A stretch of 64,000 nt of DNA from Alistipes sp. Lineage in GTDB: Bacteria > Bacteroidota > Bacteroidia > Bacteroidales > Rikenellaceae. Under the pieces are notes generated by a model. The model searched no databases. It was not told the DNA's origin and was given only the letters and a program-made list of their open reading frames with translations. The translations under genes and the position numbers were made by a program. This document shows, piece after piece, positions 3 through 9,326 of this stretch. The DNA lies in assembly GCA_017520545.1 (NCBI GenBank), contig JAFXFM010000021.1:17879-81878 (forward strand). The letters are read 5' to 3'. The first letter of the stretch is position 1. Every line of letters begins with the position of its first letter.

Positions 3-2849
3 TTAGGATATACAATTAATCCAAGTCCAAATTTCAATCTAAGAACGGAGGAAGATAATGAAACCGATAGTAAAAAGGCAGATGGCGCAATTTTAATCAA
101 CAACGAGGTTGTTGGAGTCATTGAGTTGAAGGGTTGCAACACTACCGATTTGAAGAAGGTGGAAGCACAAGCATTCGGTTATAAAAATCAGCATGCAAAG
201 GCAACTTATGTTATCATCTCCAATTTTGAAAAACTCCGTTTCTATATTGATAACTCTGTTAATTTTGAGGAGTTTAATTTGTTTAATCTCTCAGAATCTC
301 AGTTTGCTTTATTGTATTTGTGCTTGGCATACGAGAATATAGAGAAGAATTTGCCAAAAACGGTAAAAGCAAAGAGTTTGTCCAAAGAGGAGGAGATTAC
401 CAATAAACTCTATAAGGATTACTCTGAGTTCAAGCAAGTGTTGTTTAATGATATTTTAGCACTTAACCATGTTGAGAGTGCAGAGCAGAAGATTGTTCTT
501 TTCAAGAAAACTCAGAAACTTCTTGATAGGTTACTATTCATATTCTTCGCTGAGGACTCAGGATTGCTCACACCTAATACCATGAGAATACACATCTTAG
601 ATGTGTGGCAAAAGATGAAAGAGGTGGGAGAAGAACAACCTTTGTATAACCGTATTAAGAAATACTTTACATGGTTAGATGAGGGTTTCAAAAGTACTGC
701 GATAGAAGTGTTTGCTTATAATGGAGGATTATTCAAACCTGATGAAGTTTTAGACTCCTTAATTATCAGTGATGAACTTCTCTACAACTACACTCTCAAA
801 TTAAGCGAATACAACTATGCAAGTGAAGTTGATGTAAACATTCTTGGGCATATCTTTGAACACTCATTAACGGAGATAGAAGAGGTTACGAACTCTTTGC
901 TCGGTAATGAACAACCAACTGTAAGTAAACGCAAGAAAGATGGTGTGTTCTACACTCCGCAGTATATCACAAAGTATATTGTGGAAAATACAGTGGGTAA
1001 ATTGTGTGCTGAGAAAAAAGCGGAGATGGATATTGATGAGGAGGAATACTTCTCTGATAAGAAGCGTCAAAAGAACACAAAGAAAGCACTTTTCGACAAG
1101 TTGAATGATTACCGTGAGTGGTTATTGGGCGTTACTATTTGCGATCCAGCTTGTGGTAGTGGTGCCTTCTTGAATGCAGCATTGAAATATCTTATCAATG
1201 AGCATAAGTTGATAGATGAGATGCAGGCAAAAATAACAGGAGATGCCATTGTCTTTCCAAATATCGAAAATGTTATTCTTGAAAACAACCTATACGGTGT
1301 TGATATTAACGAGGAGAGCGTGGAGATTGCTAAACTTGCATTGTGGTTGCGTACTGCACAACCTTACCGTAAATTGTCATCTTTGAACAACAATATCAAG
1401 TGTGGAAACTCTCTTATCTCAGATGTAGAGGTGGCAGGAGACAAAGCATTTAATTGGGAAGCAGAATTTCCACAAGTATTTGAAAAGGGAGGTTTTGATG
1501 TGGTAATCGGTAATCCTCCTTATGTAGATTCGGAAACAATGACTAAGACAATTCCGCTACAAAGAGAATACATTGCAAACAACTATGACTGTGCCAAAGG
1601 TAATTGGGACTTACTAATACCTTTTATTGAGAAAGGTTTTAACATTTTACAACCCTACGGAAAACTTGCATTTATAACATCTAACAAGTGGCTTGCATTG
1701 GACTATGGTTCTTCCACTCGAAACTTTGTTGTACCTAATCTAAACTTTCTTGTTGATTGTACATCTGAAAAGGTATTTGAATCTGCCAATGTTTCCTCTG
1801 TGGTATTTGGTTTACAGAAGACAGAGTGCAAAGACATGATGATTGGAGATGTTAAAAATGCTGAGATTCAAGAACTTTACACTCTATCCAAACAACCAAT
1901 AGAGACATTAATAAGATTTAATCTAAGTTTAGCATTCTCAAAAGGAATCGGACTTATAAAAAAGTTGGAATCATTAAAAAAAATATCACAATATGATTAC
2001 TCAGTCTTTGGTTCATTCACAACTGCCGAAGCATATCTATTAGTACCATTTGTAGAAGATAAAGAACAGGTAAGTGCTAATGACTTCAAACTCATTAATA
2101 CGGGTACAATAGATAAGTATCTACCTTTGTGGGGATTCTCTCAAATTAAATACTTGGGAAAACAGGCACAATATCCTATTGTTAATAGAGGTGTCTTTCA
2201 AAAAGAATTTCCTAACAGATATGAAAAATTATCAAAACCAAAAGTAATTATAACAGGTATCCGATACTTTGAAGCAATTATTGACAAAGACAACTCATTT
2301 CTTCCTGCAAAGTCAACAGTAACTATAACAGGAGACTTAAATAATCTATATTTTTTGTTGGCAGTTTTGAACTCAAAGGTTATTGCCTATTATATACGAG
2401 AAAACTATTATAGTTCAAGTATGGGTGGAGGAATTAATTTTACCCCTGATTTGATTCGCTCATTACCAATTCCACAGATTCCTACCAACAAACAACTGTT
2501 TGTTGAGTATTCTGAACAAATGCAAAAATGTAATCAAAGTCTTCTGTTAAAACGCTGTCGTTTTATGCAGCGTTTGAAAGATAATGTTCCTAATGTAAAA
2601 ATCAACAGCACATTGGAAACTTTCGATTTATTTGATTTTACAAAATTCATCACTGAACTTAAAAAACAAAAAATTGTATTATCTCTTAGAGAGCAAGATG
2701 AGTGGGAAGATTTTTTCAATGACTACAAGCAACAGTGTAATGAACTCTCTGCACAAATATCCGCAACAGATAGAGAGATAGACAAAATGGTTTATGAACT
2801 CTACGGTTTAACAGACGAAGAAATCGCAATAGTTGAGGGTATGCACTAA
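3..2849 (+). CDS. Type IIG-like restriction endonuclease/N6-adenine DNA methyltransferase, 5' truncated by window edge
   Basis: A single polypeptide combining restriction nuclease and adenine methylase. The frame is open to the left edge, so the true start lies outside; a TTG at 126 gives a 907-residue form but would cut the nuclease domain. Visible nuclease residues fit a PD-(D/E)XK site: Asp at 81-83, then Glu-Leu-Lys at 123-131. The methylase has motif I DPACGSG (1143-1163) and catalytic motif IV NPPY (1512-1523), typical of gamma-class N6-adenine methylases. The C-terminal 350 residues probably hold target recognition (inference). Sixteen bases separate it from the next gene on the same strand, suggesting co-transcription. 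The gene is A+T-rich compared with the chromosome after 9700, consistent with cargo of the integrated island. The family call is confident; the DNA target cannot be read. Confidence 0.88.
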   Translation, partial: LGYTINPSPNFNLRTEEDNETDSKKADGAILINNEVVGVIELKGCNTTDLKKVEAQAFGYKNQHAKATYVIISNFEKLRFYIDNSVNFEEFNLFNLSESQFALLYLCLAYENIEKNLPKTVKAKSLSKEEEITNKLYKDYSEFKQVLFNDILALNHVESAEQKIVLFKKTQKLLDRLLFIFFAEDSGLLTPNTMRIHILDVWQKMKEVGEEQPLYNRIKKYFTWLDEGFKSTAIEVFAYNGGLFKPDEVLDSLIISDELLYNYTLKLSEYNYASEVDVNILGHIFEHSLTEIEEVTNSLLGNEQPTVSKRKKDGVFYTPQYITKYIVENTVGKLCAEKKAEMDIDEEEYFSDKKRQKNTKKALFDKLNDYREWLLGVTICDPACGSGAFLNAALKYLINEHKLIDEMQAKITGDAIVFPNIENVILENNLYGVDINEESVEIAKLALWLRTAQPYRKLSSLNNNIKCGNSLISDVEVAGDKAFNWEAEFPQVFEKGGFDVVIGNPPYVDSETMTKTIPLQREYIANNYDCAKGNWDLLIPFIEKGFNILQPYGKLAFITSNKWLALDYGSSTRNFVVPNLNFLVDCTSEKVFESANVSSVVFGLQKTECKDMMIGDVKNAEIQELYTLSKQPIETLIRFNLSLAFSKGIGLIKKLESLKKISQYDYSVFGSFTTAEAYLLVPFVEDKEQVSANDFKLINTGTIDKYLPLWGFSQIKYLGKQAQYPIVNRGVFQKEFPNRYEKLSKPKVIITGIRYFEAIIDKDNSFLPAKSTVTITGDLNNLYFLLAVLNSKVIAYYIRENYYSSSMGGGINFTPDLIRSLPIPQIPTNKQLFVEYSEQMQKCNQSLLLKRCRFMQRLKDNVPNVKINSTLETFDLFDFTKFITELKKQKIVLSLREQDEWEDFFNDYKQQCNELSAQISATDREIDKMVYELYGLTDEEIAIVEGMH

Positions 2850-2865: not shown

Positions 2866-3633
2866 ATGGAGAAAAAGAGATTGCATTATAAGGTTAGTGA
2901 AGAGTGCCTTGCTAATCTTCCTGTTGAGAATGGAAGCATTGGTTTTGAAAAGTATTGTAACAAGAAGCAGGGAAATACATTTCTTTGTATAATGCATCAC
3001 GAAAACGGGTTAGCAGATATGTGTAATGTGTTTCCAATGAAATTTAATGGAAAGATTTATGGCGTGGTGTATCCTGATCCAATAGATATGCTTATTGAAC
3101 AAGCAGGGTTATTCTATGCAATGGCAACCAATGTGCTACCCACTTTTGCACAACAGAAGGTGGAACACAGTGTAATGTCAAGTGAAGGGGAAGAAGTCAA
3201 TATGATTGACAGCAAGATTGCTCAGCAAATCATAGCATATAGGGTATCCTCCTTAACATTGTCTATAATGGCGTTAGAGAGTTTCTTGAATAGTAATATA
3301 CCTAACGATTATACAATAACAAGGAGTGGCGAAAGCATAAATAAATCAGAAATCGAATTGAAATTCTCTATCAAAGATAAATTAACAGAGTTTAAGACTA
3401 TTTATAACATTGATAGTAAGCAGTATCAAGATGCTATATCAAATATACAAAGAATGGTTATTCTCCGTAATGACTTTGTTCATATGAAATCAATACCAAA
3501 CTCTAAGAACGCCATGTCTGATGGACTGATTAAGAGTTATGAAACCATTATGAACTCAGACTTATCTAAGCATATACAAGATGTCAAAAATGTTATAAGT
3601 ATCATTACCGAACACCAAGCAGCACATGCCTAA
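2866..3633 (+). CDS. Hypothetical protein with HEPN-like RNxxxH motif
   Basis: I do not recognise this 255-residue protein by name. The C-terminal half (about residues 110-250) looks helical and contains Arg201-Asn-Asp-Phe-Val-His206, which fits the R-N-x3-H signature of HEPN nucleases. HEPN domains are common RNA-cleaving effectors or helper folds in defence and toxin modules. The N-terminal 100 residues contain Cys and His residues without a clear zinc pattern. It follows the restriction-methylase gene by 16 bases and precedes a strong terminator, so the two probably form an operon. RNase activity is inference from one motif; it could instead be a non-catalytic helical accessory protein. 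Confidence 0.6.
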   Translation: MEKKRLHYKVSEECLANLPVENGSIGFEKYCNKKQGNTFLCIMHHENGLADMCNVFPMKFNGKIYGVVYPDPIDMLIEQAGLFYAMATNVLPTFAQQKVEHSVMSSEGEEVNMIDSKIAQQIIAYRVSSLTLSIMALESFLNSNIPNDYTITRSGESINKSEIELKFSIKDKLTEFKTIYNIDSKQYQDAISNIQRMVILRNDFVHMKSIPNSKNAMSDGLIKSYETIMNSDLSKHIQDVKNVISIITEHQAAHA

Positions 3634-3661: not shown

Positions 3662-3697
3662 CCTGCATTCTCCATAAAAGCGAATGCAGGATTTTTG
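3662..3697 (+). terminator. Rho-independent terminator after restriction operon
   Basis: Perfect 9-bp stem CCTGCATTC (3662-3670) / GAATGCAGG (3682-3690) followed by ATTTTTG. It lies 28 bases after the stop of the HEPN-like gene and 26 bases before the stop of the convergent XRE-NADAR gene. Confidence 0.85.
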
Positions 3698-3722: not shown

Positions 3723-4721
3723 CTACTTTATCTCATGCTCAAATAGGAATAAAGGATATTTAATATCATAGTCTATTTTGCCATTATTATCTCTTAAAAC
3801 TGTCAATATCTTACCCATTGCATTCTCTCCAACGAGGGTGTAATGACAATGCCCCAAAATTGTCTGTTCGCACAGTGCTGCCATCTCCTCCATTGCCTTA
3901 ATTTGTGCTTTCAATTTGTCATCAACTTTTTGTTGAGCAGATTCTGAACGAGGTTTTTTAAGAGATAATGTTTTTTGTTCTACCTCCTTTATAAGAGTGT
4001 TAATATGTTTTTTTGCGTTGGAACGGACAGACTTAACTAAATCCTTTTTCTGTAAATCCTGACAACCCCATCTTAACACGCTGTTAGAGGTGTTCTGTTG
4101 CGTTGTATCCTCAACGATAACTTTGCCCTTGCTCTTGTTTAATAACTTCCTAAACCCTGCATTTTGGGCATATTTGAGGGATACAACATACTTCATAACC
4201 TCAACATCAAAATAGTCGTCATGCCAATTAGGGTGATGATATTTTTTATAATCATTACCATTTACAAATATCTTCTTGCAGTACATTGAATTAGGATAGT
4301 TCATAATATCATTTTGCAGTTCAGGATAACCGCTAAATCGTAATGCAATGAATAGATGCTCAGATGTCTTGAATGTATATCCGCAGCACTCAACAGGATA
4401 CTCCGTACTCATATTGCTAAAAGCACCGTACTCCCCATTTAGTTTACCAAAAGTTACAATATCATTTGCCCGATATTGCTCCGTTCTACCAAAAACTATT
4501 TCATAAGGATTGTATGCTGATTCAATTTGAGATGGAACGGTGTATAAATCTCGAATCGGCAGATTAAGAGCATTTGCCATCTTCTCAATTTGCTTCTGAC
4601 TTGCGTGTTTACCATTAACCAATGAGTAACAATACTCACGGGTAACACCTATCATCTTAGCAAATTCAGCAACCGATATTCCTCGTTGATTGATAATCTC
4701 TTTTACTCTTAATTCTGCCAT
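3723..4721 (-). CDS. XRE-type HTH / NADAR domain fusion protein
   Basis: 332 residues. Residues 5-60 form an XRE/Cro helix-turn-helix (ISVAEFAKMIGVTREYCYSLVNG). Residues 88-222 match NADAR (YbiA-like): GAFSN at 99-103, TSEH at 119-122, conserved Glu204 and WG at 218-219. Residues 223-332 are an unassigned charged extension. NADAR proteins are known to remove ADP-ribose from guanine in DarT1-NADAR toxin-antitoxin pairs, and YbiA acts in riboflavin intermediate metabolism; which applies here is not shown. The ATG at 4721 is chosen over the upstream one at 4766 because a -7 element (4741-4748) lies inside the longer reading. No DarT toxin is visible in the window. The direct DNA-binding fusion suggests autoregulation through the repeats at 4761-4792. 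Confidence 0.85.
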   Translation of the reverse strand: MAELRVKEIINQRGISVAEFAKMIGVTREYCYSLVNGKHASQKQIEKMANALNLPIRDLYTVPSQIESAYNPYEIVFGRTEQYRANDIVTFGKLNGEYGAFSNMSTEYPVECCGYTFKTSEHLFIALRFSGYPELQNDIMNYPNSMYCKKIFVNGNDYKKYHHPNWHDDYFDVEVMKYVVSLKYAQNAGFRKLLNKSKGKVIVEDTTQQNTSNSVLRWGCQDLQKKDLVKSVRSNAKKHINTLIKEVEQKTLSLKKPRSESAQQKVDDKLKAQIKAMEEMAALCEQTILGHCHYTLVGENAMGKILTVLRDNNGKIDYDIKYPLFLFEHEIK

Positions 4722-4740
4722 AGTGTAATAAATTTTATTA

Positions 4741-4793
4741 CAAATATATAAAAATTCTTTTAGCATGCTACTTCTTATGAGGTAACATGCTTA
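4741..4793 (-). promoter_or_regulatory. Promoter with two operator-like repeats for XRE-NADAR gene
   Basis: On the minus strand a TATATTTG -7 element occupies 4748-4741, about 20 bases upstream of the ATG. Where a -33 box is expected sits the perfect palindrome TAGCATGCTA (4761-4770), and a related TAACATGCTT lies at 4783-4792, 22 bp away (two helical turns). The arrangement fits an XRE repressor covering its own promoter; binding is inference. Confidence 0.6.
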
Positions 4794-4925: not shown

Positions 4926-5105
4926 TTACTCATCGTTTTCTTTCTTACTTAGTATTCCTGCCCAATATCTTTTTTGTGATTCGCTTTGCTTTGCATTTAT
5001 TCTCAGTCTCTCATCATAAGTCATTCTTTTGTGGTAATCCTTCATACTATCTGAAATGGATTTTTTTACATCATCGGTTAATTCTCTGTAAATTCTTTTT
5101 GCCAT
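4926..5105 (-). CDS. Small basic protein, island-encoded
   Basis: 59 residues from the ATG at 5105; the longer 84-residue reading starts in A/T-rich sequence and adds an implausible Phe-rich leader. The protein is rich in Lys, Arg and Ser, with a spaced repeat-like pattern (SxSMKxYH, then KQSESQKRYW). This resembles short basic DNA-binding modules of the NUMOD3 kind found in phage and mobile-element proteins, but the match is from memory and weak. It stands alone between the XRE-NADAR gene and the leader RNA, on the same strand as XRE-NADAR. Confidence 0.5.
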   Translation of the reverse strand: MAKRIYRELTDDVKKSISDSMKDYHKRMTYDERLRINAKQSESQKRYWAGILSKKENDE

Positions 5106-5291
5106 AGTTAGTCTGTTTACTATAAATAGTTTGAACTTCTGAAAAAAGACGAAAAATCCGAAAAAATTTTTTCTCGGCATATAGTGGCATACTAACTACA
5201 CCAACCCTTTTTGACGAAGTAAGAGGGAGGAAACATAAAAACAGATAAGTAGGTAGGAAGTATACTTCCTAAAAAATAAATGTTCAAAAAT

Positions 5292-5552: not shown

Positions 5553-5786
5553 ATGCAAAAATTAAAATTAATTGAATTAAAAAAGGAATTTCCATTAATT
5601 CCTGAGTATCAGATTAAGAATCTGACAGAATGTACTACTGATGAGTTGCTGTTTGAGTTAGGTTATTGTGATTGGTTAATTAAACAAGAACACGATTTAG
5701 AGTATGCTTATCAACTTAAAACACTGATTGAAAATAATTTATTCAAAAACATTATTAGAAATGGAGAACAGAAATTTTACATTTAA
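5553..5786 (+). CDS. Hypothetical 77-residue protein
   Basis: A small acidic/basic mixed protein (about residues 10-70 predicted helical), unrecognised. It is the first ORF after the structured leader. Its stop codon is separated by one base from an ATG of the primase-like gene, or overlaps that gene by 26 bases if the earlier ATG is used, so translation is probably coupled. Confidence 0.6.
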   Translation: MQKLKLIELKKEFPLIPEYQIKNLTECTTDELLFELGYCDWLIKQEHDLEYAYQLKTLIENNLFKNIIRNGEQKFYI

Positions 5787-7155
5787 CATGGGTGTTAGCA
5801 CTACACATTATGAAAACAAGTGCAATGAGTGGGGAAAACTCCGTTACAAGACAATGCAGTTAGACATTGATGGATTAGAGGATTACATCAGAAAAGGTTA
5901 TTGTTTTACACATACCTTCAAAGATGTATCGGCAGATGGTTCATTTGGTTGTAAGGAAAAGACTATCAAAAATTTTAAGAGTACAAACACGGTATTTCTT
6001 GATATTGATGATTGCAGTCTTACCGCTCAGGAGTTCTATACTTCTGTGACACCTAAACCAACATTAATGTACACTACACCGAGTAATGTTACAGGTGTTC
6101 AGAACAGATTTAGACTTGTTTACCTATATGAACAACCTATCTTGTCTAACGATACATATAAAAAGGAGGTACAGAAGATTTCTACGGGAATTGGTAAGAT
6201 TATTTCTGATTTTTCTTTTGATTCTACAAGTGTAAATGCTTCTCAACAGATGGGAGGAAATGGTACAGAAGATTGTTTACTTTTGAAGAGTTATAATATC
6301 TTTAATTTTAATACCTTCAAGGAGTATGAGGAGTGCAGTTCTATTACTTATAAAAAAGAAGAGAGAAATGATATAAGTAATAGAAAAGCAGTTAGTTATG
6401 AAGAAAAAGAAATTAAAATTGTTGATAAAGAGTTTGAAAGAGAATTTTGGGAATTAACCGATAATGAGTCGGTATATAAATTATTAAATAAATATAGGTG
6501 TAAATATCCTCTGCACGATGCTACACAAGTTCACGAAGACAAACCTTATATTTACCTTAATAACTATGTTGAAATATCAAGAAGGTATTATGTAGTCAAA
6601 GATGATAATGGGCATAATAGGGCAATACCTGTAAAGATAAAAGAGGGTAATAGAGAAAAGATATTATTCAGGAATGCTCTGCTAAGATTAAAGATTGATT
6701 CTGAAATGAGTTTTGAGAATCTTTTGTATGCAATGGTGTATGAAAGGACTTATTGGATTGATAATAGTGATGGTGAGATTACAAATAGAATTCTTTATAA
6801 GGTAGCGAAAGGCGCTTTTACAAAGAGAGACTTATATGGTATAAACACTTCAACCGAAGGGCAGAAGAAAAGAAGGGCAATAACAAACAAAAATGGTTTG
6901 AAAGTTAATAAGGCATACTGTGAAAAGTACGATATACCCGTAAGGACAATGGCAAATAAGATGAGGAGATATATTTCCAATAAAAATATATTGAAGAACT
7001 ATGACTTTAAAAAAAGTGTTGAAGAGAATAGTAAACTATTAAAAGAAAAGAAAATAAAACCTAATAGTGAAAGAAGACTATATGAATTTATGGAGTGGTA
7101 TAAAACAGAAGGAATAATAACAAATAAAAAAACAGAAAAACATGAAGAAATTTAA
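5761..7155 (+). CDS. Primase-like (AEP/prim-pol family) replication protein
   Basis: 464 residues from the ATG at 5761; another ATG at 5788 follows the upstream stop directly and is equally plausible. An FLDIDD segment fits the acidic metal-binding motif of archaeo-eukaryotic primases, and the following YTTPS...NRFRLVY stretch resembles the second conserved region of phage and plasmid prim-pol proteins. The C-terminal third is very Lys-rich and may bind DNA. No helicase Walker motifs are present, so the protein would need an outside helicase. It probably primes replication of the excised island. The family assignment rests on motifs only. Confidence 0.55.
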   Translation: MENRNFTFNMGVSTTHYENKCNEWGKLRYKTMQLDIDGLEDYIRKGYCFTHTFKDVSADGSFGCKEKTIKNFKSTNTVFLDIDDCSLTAQEFYTSVTPKPTLMYTTPSNVTGVQNRFRLVYLYEQPILSNDTYKKEVQKISTGIGKIISDFSFDSTSVNASQQMGGNGTEDCLLLKSYNIFNFNTFKEYEECSSITYKKEERNDISNRKAVSYEEKEIKIVDKEFEREFWELTDNESVYKLLNKYRCKYPLHDATQVHEDKPYIYLNNYVEISRRYYVVKDDNGHNRAIPVKIKEGNREKILFRNALLRLKIDSEMSFENLLYAMVYERTYWIDNSDGEITNRILYKVAKGAFTKRDLYGINTSTEGQKKRRAITNKNGLKVNKAYCEKYDIPVRTMANKMRRYISNKNILKNYDFKKSVEENSKLLKEKKIKPNSERRLYEFMEWYKTEGIITNKKTEKHEEI

Positions 7156-7684
7156 CGAAATCCCAAATTTTAAGACGCTTCGTTGCGAAGCAAAAATAAG
7201 CGAGGATAAACTGACAATCTTGCATTACAGAATTAATGAGATTATTTTTAAGTACAACATGCAGTCTGCATTTCCAATAAATGTTCAGAAAGCAACAGAG
7301 CAATTAGTGGTTGTTTTTCAGCAGATAAAAGAGTTGGAGGTTAAAGATGCCGTAAAACCTAAACAAGAGGAGATTTTGGCAAAAGGCAGAGAGATAGTAA
7401 AAAGTCTCAAAGAGTATGTTAAAAATTTCAAGTATGATGATAGTTGTGTCGGTGCCATTGAAAGTATGTGCAAGTACCAACTATCCAATTATCTCAAAAA
7501 CAAAGAAAACTTAACCATTACAACGGGAGTAGAGATATTAGAGGGAAATGTTGTGCTACGGGAGATTGCCAATGATGTTACCGCTAATCTCAACAGGCAA
7601 CCGAATATCAAAGCATTTCTTCGCATGCAGGGAGAGATAATAGATATTATAGGTAAGCAACTGCAAACCTTCCAATTCAGGTAG
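7142..7684 (+). CDS. Hypothetical island protein, downstream of primase-like gene
   Basis: 180 residues, mostly helical, with no motif I recognise. Its ATG overlaps the end of the primase-like gene by 14 bases, so it is the third gene of the same operon (leader RNA, 77-residue protein, primase-like, this). Its position suggests an accessory role in replication or maintenance, but nothing in the sequence shows it. Confidence 0.65.
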   Translation: MKKFNEIPNFKTLRCEAKISEDKLTILHYRINEIIFKYNMQSAFPINVQKATEQLVVVFQQIKELEVKDAVKPKQEEILAKGREIVKSLKEYVKNFKYDDSCVGAIESMCKYQLSNYLKNKENLTITTGVEILEGNVVLREIANDVTANLNRQPNIKAFLRMQGEIIDIIGKQLQTFQFR

Positions 7685-7881: not shown

Positions 7882-9006
7882 TTAAAATTCAATCTTCGTG
7901 TTGATGACTGTTTTGTCCAACAACTTTGCATAGTGCTGTGTCATCTTCGTATTTGAGTGTCCAAGAATTTTGGAAACTACCTCTATCGCAATTCCTGCAT
8001 TCAACATCAATGTCGCTGCCGTGTGTCTCGCAAGGTGTGTCGTAAGAGTCTTCTTAATCCCACAAATATCGGCAATCTCTTTTAAGTACGAGTTGTATTT
8101 TTGATTGGTGATAATCGGTAGTTCAAAGTCATACTTCTTCAATAGCGAAATAGCGGTATCATTGAGTGGTAGAATATATGTAACTCCCGTCTTACCTCGC
8201 TTCTTTTTGAGGTACATCACTTCACCGTCAGTCTGAATATCCTCTCTACGAACCGATGCCAAGTCGCAATATGATAGAGCGGTATTTGCAGCGAAAACAA
8301 ATAAGTCTCTCACTTGGTTCAGGCGTTCAATGCCGAAATCCTTATTTGCTATCCTCATCAACTCCTCCTTAGTGAGAGGAACGATGTTTACTTCCCCCTT
8401 CTTTATCTTGATAGTGTCAAACGGATTCTTTGTAAGTTTGTTGTTACGCATACCGTAAACAAAAATACTCTTCGCCTTTGTCAGGTATGATGCCAAAGTG
8501 GAATCCTTTAATTTCAATTCATTTTTAAGGTGGTACTTATAATTTAGAACATCGGTATTATCAACTGCCTTTACGGGTTTGTTGCCTACAACTATCTTAA
8601 ATTGTTCTATTGCCAATAGGTATTTGGAGTGTGTGGAATTTCCTATTTCCGCTCCTTTTCTCTTGTTGATAATTTCAATAAAATCATCAAAGAGGTTAAA
8701 GAGGGTGTAGTGCTGCTCCTCAAATCCGTTCCTCACATACTCCGTCAATGTTGCTGCTCGAACCTGAGTCCCCTTTACCACGCATTCGGTGTAATACTCA
8801 TCAATTTTACGCCTAACCTCTGAGCAGTAGCGACTTATGTGGTTTGAACGGTTTGAAAAAATTGCTTTTTTGAACTCGTCAGGGTTCACTCTTAAATCAA
8901 GATAAGCGGTGGAGCGCACCCCATCTACATTCACCCAAACTTGGATTTTGTTCAGATTTGCTCGGTTTGTCCTTGCCTTAGGACAGGTAAAAGTAACGCT
9001 GTACAT
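7882..9006 (-). CDS. Tyrosine site-specific recombinase (integrase), IntDOT-like
   Basis: 374 residues with a core-binding domain at about 100-195 and a catalytic domain at about 205-365. Visible catalytic residues are His324 and Arg327 (HLARH), His350 (LGH) and nucleophile Tyr359 (QHYAK), with a beta-hairpin KKKRGKTG at 267-274. The usual first Arg (TGLR context) is replaced: residues 242-246 read TALSY, giving Ser245, the same substitution known from the CTnDOT integrase. It probably integrates and excises the island at the neighbouring tRNA-Gly, whose 3' end lies 248 bases upstream of its start codon, the classic integrase-att geometry. No excisionase gene is visible nearby. Confidence 0.92.
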   Translation of the reverse strand: MYSVTFTCPKARTNRANLNKIQVWVNVDGVRSTAYLDLRVNPDEFKKAIFSNRSNHISRYCSEVRRKIDEYYTECVVKGTQVRAATLTEYVRNGFEEQHYTLFNLFDDFIEIINKRKGAEIGNSTHSKYLLAIEQFKIVVGNKPVKAVDNTDVLNYKYHLKNELKLKDSTLASYLTKAKSIFVYGMRNNKLTKNPFDTIKIKKGEVNIVPLTKEELMRIANKDFGIERLNQVRDLFVFAANTALSYCDLASVRREDIQTDGEVMYLKKKRGKTGVTYILPLNDTAISLLKKYDFELPIITNQKYNSYLKEIADICGIKKTLTTHLARHTAATLMLNAGIAIEVVSKILGHSNTKMTQHYAKLLDKTVINTKIEF

Positions 9007-9242: not shown

Positions 9243-9253
9243 TTCATTCTTTG

Positions 9254-9326
9254 AGCGGAAAACGAGACTCGAACTCGCGACCCCAACCTTGGCAAGGTTG
9301 TGCTCTACCAACTGAGCTATTTCCGC
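9254..9326 (-). tRNA. tRNA-Gly(GCC)
   Basis: 73 bases fold into a full cloverleaf: acceptor GCGGAAA/TTTCCGC, D-arm GCTC/GAGC with AGTTGGTA loop, anticodon arm CAACC-TTGCCAA-GGTTG (anticodon complement at 9291-9293), and T-arm GCGAG-TTCGAGT-CTCGT. The CCA tail is not encoded. Its 3' end faces the integrase and marks the likely right boundary of the island. Confidence 0.96.

Follow-up and report, generated by a model that had tools for sequence, protein, structure and literature searches.

A NADAR domain joined to a DNA-binding domain: a candidate self-regulated cassette on tRNA-inserted elements of Bacteroidales

What is the task of a protein which joins an XRE-type DNA-binding domain to a NADAR domain and is encoded opposite a restriction system on a mobile element? 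This question was raised by a stretch of 64,000 nucleotides of Alistipes sp. DNA (the window), for which such a fusion had been predicted. Both domains were indeed found above their Pfam cut-offs, NADAR (PF08719) with 45.5 bits versus a gathering threshold of 35.1 and HTH_3 (PF01381) with 42.3 bits versus a cut-off of 23. The predicted open reading frame is also present, but not up to its supposed end at 4793, which lies 27 bp beyond the first possible start. The longest open reading frame covers 3723-4766 on the minus strand (347 aa). The ATG at 4721 (MAELRV..., 332 aa) is the likelier start, because the orthologues align from this Met and because a palindrome and a promoter box fall between the two starts. 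The gene and its parts are as follows.

3723..4721, minus strand: gene of the XRE-NADAR fusion, 332 aa when read from ATG 4721; reading frame open to 4766
4518..4721, minus strand: XRE-type HTH domain, residues 1-68 (HTH_3; five helices in the model; HTH folds in Foldseek)
4053..4463, minus strand: NADAR core, residues 87-223, with E121, R128, E204 and W218 (Pfam, alignments, hhalign, Foldseek)
3849..4052, minus strand: insertion, residues 224-291, two long helices (223-252 and 260-291) in the model
3726..3848, minus strand: closing segment of the NADAR domain with the tail, residues 292-332, signature G298xN300xxG303...R310 (alignment A8)
4724..4742: palindrome TGTAATA-N5-TATTACA, putative operator of the gene itself (7/7 leaders; shuffling)
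4741..4748, minus strand: -7-type promoter box TATATTTG, beside the palindrome

The original prediction had left a C-terminus of 110 residues unassigned. Alignment with other NADARs revealed that these last ~110 residues consist of a helical-hairpin insertion of ~70 residues, followed by the closing segment of the NADAR domain. The GxNxxG...R signature of this segment was invariant in 19/19 rows of an alignment (A8) composed of the window protein, six fused orthologues and 12 phage NADARs. The NADAR structure 8bau carries a shorter insertion at the matching position. Residues 224-290 of the insertion contain 15 K+R versus 9 D+E. For the computable ortholog pairs dN/dS was 0.04-0.15 in the HTH domain, 0.02-0.12 in NADAR, 0.00-0.08 in the closing segment and 0.12-0.21 in the insertion, while no value could be obtained for several saturated pairs. 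These low values indicate that the HTH and NADAR halves are both kept.

The fold was investigated using AlphaFold and Foldseek. The model based on A8 reached a mean pLDDT of 85, with 89-97 per block for residues 101-200. A model from the seven fused sequences alone gave a mean pLDDT of 50 with the NADAR core below 50 and was set aside. The A8-based model may thus lean to the NADAR fold, since NADARs were part of its alignment and the core fell below 50 without them. Among 327 Foldseek matches in the PDB two had E ≤ 0.001, and both are NADARs: 2b3w (YbiA; E 6.4e-6, rmsd 2.9 over 129 columns) and 8bau (a NADAR with ADP-ribose; E 9.4e-5, but rmsd 12.2 over 246 columns). They were followed by HTH proteins, for example the R-M controllers C.BclI and C.AhdI. 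Consequently, the structural check left the predicted NADAR domain standing. The assignment can also be made independently of the model, from Pfam and from hhalign against phage NADARs (prob 97.6, E 4.4e-12, residues 86-220, with the closing segment outside the match).

Pocket residues were paired by alignment with the catalytic set of NADAR published in the available text of PMC11543638. The residues E121, W166, E204 and W218 are present in all seven intact copies. E121 corresponds to E88 of E. coli C7, R128 stands at the place of K95, where many NADARs have Lys, and E204 matches the superfamily Glu, which is E173 in C7. The pocket is mostly kept, but one residue is replaced: the Glu of the ExxxxxxK motif is found in all fusion proteins, and the Lys is Arg in all seven. 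Arg occupies the Lys place in 4/7 unfused rows of alignment A2 and in 0/12 phage rows of A8 (all Lys), which argues for a branch variant rather than a plain lesion. The GR motif has not retained its Arg. Both departures count against the explanation which we favour below. The DarT1-type Asp (D171 of C7) is absent and the Glu type, E204, is found instead; a copy without HTH domain (L088) has Gly at the place of E204. For E. coli C7 the same text describes a K95R variant that was active in vitro and gave no rescue from DarT1. The NADAR domain is probably an active hydrolase, with the removal of ADP-ribose from nucleic acid as its most likely activity.

According to the accessible parts of PMC11543638, PMC11125620 and PMC11833690, guanine-ADP-ribose is a substrate of NADARs in both DNA and RNA. 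Which of the known systems does the fusion resemble most? Its best NCBIfam match was DS32_2, a 'NADAR family anti-phage protein' (93 bits, E 1.1e-26), from the DS32 pair of PRTase-CE (NF053875) and NADAR (NF053876). The score is far under the cut-off of 240. Unlike DS32, the fusion has no adjacent PRTase-CE (no match among the eight window ORFs scanned), and it adds the XRE domain and the hairpin. The DS32_2 genes of L024 and L025 adjoin DS32_1/PRTase-CE. By profile comparison, the NADAR half of DS32 is the closest named family, not the DarT1 antitoxins. We infer that DS32 originates from DefensePredictor (PMC13092281), the main text of which contains NADAR once and neither 'DS32' nor 'DS-32'. 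With E. coli YbiA and TIGR02464, a riboflavin-intermediate N-glycosidase family, the fusion shares the fold (2b3w) and a catalytic residue of the Glu type in the last strand; it differs in its score (44.6 bits versus a cut-off of 73.7), the Arg in place of Lys, the extra domain and the insertion. DarT1-NADAR toxin-antitoxin systems share the NADAR superfamily with the fusion, which in contrast lacks an adjacent DarT, the DarT1-type Asp and the Lys.

DarT1 had been named as the known partner of NADARs. This list was incomplete, since PRTase-CE in DS32 and, in the available text of PMC11125620, YarT are also partners. The accompanying statement that no DarT is visible proved correct: the DarT profile (PF14487) had no match in 5/5 carrier genomes, among them that of the window (92% complete). 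The fusion was the only NADAR match in these five genomes. The closest folds in the PDB to its HTH domain are C.BclI and C.AhdI. R-M controller C proteins are small autoregulated repressors, whereas the fusion carries an enzyme domain and is not tied to one restriction system. NrtR-type Nudix-HTH regulators, as described in the accessible part of PMC9503650, likewise combine an ADP-ribose-handling and a DNA-binding domain; the fusion differs from them in its enzyme fold, in having the perfect site only at its own gene and in its kept enzyme residues. No description of an HTH-NADAR fusion was found in the text of the open literature that was searched.

The gene lies on an 11-kb element which is bounded by 28-bp repeats of the tRNA-Gly 3' end. 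The left repeat is located at C20:16096 of the contig, 1,782 bp left of the window, and the two repeats are 11,033 bp apart. The following parts lie in the window.

9251..9278: right att repeat (28 bp) in the tRNA-Gly gene (9253-9326)
7882..9006, minus strand: tyrosine integrase of the element (PF00589, 2.7e-19)
126..2849, plus strand: type IIG restriction-methylation gene, starting left of the window (PADLOC 1.1e-226, matched from profile position 103)
2866..3633, plus strand: HEPN-like gene, weak match (PF18735, E 0.0064, below cut-off)
3662..3696: inverted repeat CCTGCATTC/GAATGCAGG (3662-3670/3682-3690) and T-run between the convergent genes
4926..5180, minus strand: small protein gene upstream of the fusion gene, with homologues upstream in the other six intact copies
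5553..7684, plus strand: three ORFs (77, 475 and 180 aa) at the position of the 285-306-aa Rep-like gene of other elements

With its integrase, its tRNA 3'-end direct repeats and its type IIG cargo the locus is the mobile, defence-bearing tRNA island that had been predicted; the type IIG neighbour was confirmed, and the HEPN-like one stayed a match below cut-off. The three ORFs at 5553..7684 had no family match over the cut-off. The 285-306-aa gene could be aligned in 5/7 elements with intact copies and may be Rep-like, a name given by eye (two that were scanned had no Pfam match). Another ORF of 327 aa is found at this position in L073. Repeats of tRNA ends enclose the gene also in L072 (Cys, 15 bp), L082 (Arg, 20 bp), L087 (Leu, 21 bp) and L088 (Met, 21 bp), giving 5/8 loci with the window included, so that the homologues do not speak against a mobile-element context. 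No such repeat was found in L083, L074 and L075, nor in L073, a shorter stretch of the L082 contig.

Seven intact orthologues, the window protein included, were found in Alistipes and other Bacteroidales (57-98% identity). A full-length copy is present in 5/268 genomes of the family, one of them the window's own, and in 1/393 genomes of an even sample of the order, again its own; in this sample no more than five candidates per genome were scored. Two short peptide patterns, run against the 84,980 species of the GTDB set, revealed 8 loci, all in Bacteroidales or subgroups and five from ruminant caecum. Four of these are contigs of the family survey, L083 and L087 are intact, L088 has no HTH and L089 is broken. 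In the phylogenetic tree all fused proteins group together (100/99). Their closest neighbour is the HTH-less L077, with support of 83/86, a placement which is not firm. In viral contigs no relative was found by the pattern-limited scan for the fused protein or with a DS32-like NADAR alignment query; a YbiA-like query gave 13 loci, 12 of which were used in A8. Among phage and plasmid records 0/5 and 0/21, respectively, covered 80% of the query, the matches being NADAR-only or HTH-only.

Does the gene belong to the operon which it faces? The cargo convergent with the fusion gene was compared for the seven intact copies.

Window: HTH, type IIG, HEPN-like
L073: 95 aa, type IIG, AbiH, 287 aa
L074: HsdR, RloB, RloA-like ATPase; HsdS and HsdM named by eye
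L087: GmrSD-like
L083: 368 aa of no recognised kind; an 83-aa same-strand ORF lies between
L075: T5orf172 protein
L072: HTH gene only

The predicted layout, the fusion gene facing the restriction and HEPN-like genes across a terminator, was thus seen in the window but is not a conserved link: seven copies face seven different convergent genes, and the fusion gene is therefore not part of the restriction system. A partnership with the type IIG/HEPN operon was rejected for this reason. The nearest repeat of the window cargo is the type IIG gene of L073 (68% identical), followed there by AbiH and the unrelated 287-aa gene. Recognised defence genes face the fusion gene in 4/7 copies and are missing in 3/7, which counts against the favoured explanation. 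The small upstream protein is a neighbour with homologues in 7/7 copies.

The window and L072 share one block of 1,138 bp at 94.8% identity (window 4762-3626), which consists of the leader, the gene and its 3' region. It overlaps the last 8 bp, at the stop codon, of the HEPN-like gene and covers no other gene of the element; the replication, integration and cargo genes of the two elements are not alike. Between the window and L073 the similarity extends over the gene, the far end and some stretches of the type IIG gene. A Rep profile search gave matches in 16/268 genomes, three of them carriers; among the rest, L111, L112, L113 and L114 have a close Rep and no XRE-NADAR. The window's own genome contains a second element (L128, contig C18, about 3.2-14.1 kb), which resembles that of L072 and is without XRE-NADAR; a 510-aa gene occupies the slot. 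The block shared with an unrelated element and the sister elements without the gene show that it is an optional passenger. In L112 the slot after Rep, which XRE-NADAR occupies in other elements, holds a RelE/ParE-like match (8376-8750) below cut-off (23.7 versus 62.85 bits), then an HTH gene named by eye.

Six cargo operons open with a small gene; two of these genes encode HTH proteins and the other four proteins of 72-95 aa (L087 13189-13434, L083 12613-12873, L074 18537-18755, L073 16354-16641, L022 17351-17641, L072 8437-8730). The one examined, from L074, had no Pfam match, and the one of L087 is preceded by a palindrome with 11-bp arms. These small genes are possibly cargo regulators.

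The palindrome TGTAATA-N5-TATTACA was found upstream of the gene in 7/7 intact copies, whereas 100 shufflings of the window sequence gave an expectation of 0. It lies 3 bp from the ATG in the window and 24 in L072; the site is thus kept in spite of differing leaders. The consensus of the Bacteroidetes -7 box is TAnnTTTG. A box of this type touches or overlaps the palindrome in the five leaders displayed, with one mismatch in two of them. The five carrier genomes (65-93% complete) contain 1, 1, 1, 2 and 1 perfect palindromes, all at the fusion gene; the second one of G957 lies inside the gene, and the sole one of the window's genome is that of its leader. Autoregulation of the fusion gene via this palindrome, to which binding is predicted, is very probable.

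Is there a wider regulon? The five carriers contain eight more palindromes with one mismatch, four of them TGTAATAAAAAATCTTACA and four elsewhere, versus 2 for a reversed control pattern. The TGTAATAAAAAATCTTACA near-copy sits in front of the element's WYL_2 gene (Pfam 44.4 versus 26.7 bits), with 1 mismatch in the window and L072 and 2 in L073. This or a similar sequence was found just before WYL_2 in L022 (16994-17012), L072 (9070-9088), L073 (16986-17004) and the L118 and C18 copies. XRE-NADAR is absent from L118, from the C18 element of the own genome and from L111 (2 mismatches), and the near-copy is there nevertheless, so that cross-talk is possible and the WYL_2 gene is a possible second target. 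A perfect palindrome was not found at the cargo promoters. Control of other genes by XRE-NADAR is not well supported, and the predicted control of the island found no support. A master regulator of the element is not favoured, because the gene is optional, because perfect palindromes occur only at the gene and because the WYL_2 near-copy also exists without XRE-NADAR.

Our best explanation, which we hold tentatively, is a self-contained and self-regulated NADAR enzyme cassette (a 'trigger enzyme'), optional on tRNA-inserted Bacteroidales elements with interchangeable, often antiphage, cargo. The XRE domain would bind the palindrome over its own promoter and hold expression low, as is strongly indicated. 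Going by its family, the NADAR domain would strip ADP-ribose from the guanines of DNA or RNA, and would thereby repair what ADP-ribosyltransferases from phages, rivals or defence systems have damaged. On engaging ADP-ribosylated nucleic acid, perhaps aided by the basic helical hairpin, the protein might leave the operator, and more protein would be made. Some enzymes regulate their own genes. This analogy, together with the Nudix-HTH and SLOG-HTH fusions proposed as ADP-ribose sensors in the accessible part of PMC9503650, underlies the idea of induction by the substrate, which is possible but on the doubtful side. Against the cassette explanation it counts that no substrate, ADP-ribosyltransferase partner or induction cue was found in this analysis.

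The protein could alternatively be a one-gene antiphage effector akin to DS32, with NADAR acting on a nucleotide product that the phage makes or induces, while XRE keeps a costly protein low until infection. The DS32_2 match, the DS32_1/PRTase-CE next to L024 and L025, and the recognised defence genes opposite four of the seven copies speak for this, as does the nearest HTH-less NADAR, L077, which comes after a GajB-like helicase gene. With 93 bits far under 240, eight scanned window ORFs that all lack a PRTase-CE match and a varying surrounding cargo, we consider such an effector unlikely. A pure sensor-regulator, whose NADAR domain does no more than bind an ADP-ribose signal and which controls genes of the element or its cargo, would agree with an HTH joined to a ligand-binding enzyme fold and with the palindrome of one to two mismatches before WYL_2 in the window element, L072 and L073. 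It is quite improbable, since the catalytic Glu residues are kept, perfect palindromes lie only at the fusion gene in five genomes, the WYL_2 site is also found in elements without the gene (L118, C18 and, at 2 mismatches, L111), cargo promoters have no perfect site and the gene is optional.

Two further readings appear very unlikely, to a like degree. An antitoxin, either left without its toxin or directed at an ADP-ribosyltransferase toxin encoded far away, is suggested by NADARs pairing with DarT1 and YarT (available text of PMC11125620) and by the slot of L112 with its weak RelE/ParE-like match and HTH gene; the five carriers have no DarT match, the DarT1-type Asp is absent, and no constant neighbour is fit to be a toxin. 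An anti-defence enzyme would destroy immune signals which the host derives from ADP-ribose, and thereby allow the element or phages of the host to establish themselves. This was proposed for phage NADARs in the accessible part of PMC9503650, and the gene does travel on integrative elements. However, the measured NADAR activities in the texts available concern ADP-ribosylated guanine and riboflavin intermediates, and the pattern-limited scan found no copy in viral contigs.

The cassette explanation in its fullest form, a single polypeptide that erases and reads guanine ADP-ribosylation, frees its own promoter on modified nucleic acid and travels as a promoter-to-terminator cassette between defence-bearing elements, is slightly more doubtful than substrate induction taken by itself. 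If true, it would take NADAR biology beyond toxin partners, to a gene that stands alone and regulates itself. It would also offer a simple test of bacterial sensing of nucleic-acid ADP-ribosylation, with one promoter-operator reporter and one protein. In addition, cassette movement is seen here among tRNA-inserted elements which swap antiphage cargo in gut Bacteroidales.

Other NADARs were noticed during the survey. The HTH-less L077 gene (4571-5293) directly follows the GajB-like helicase gene (L076 16180-19314, PADLOC 2.9e-39), and its protein also has an insertion ahead of the closing helix. Four other genomes of the family encode a protein of ~200 aa near a NADAR of another clade (L078 8731-9942, L079 2733-3904, L080 9200-10816, L081 9757-12533). 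The protein of L078 matched ART-PolyVal just below the cut-off (30.0 versus 31.2 bits), and these four loci are possible ADP-ribosyltransferase/NADAR pairs.
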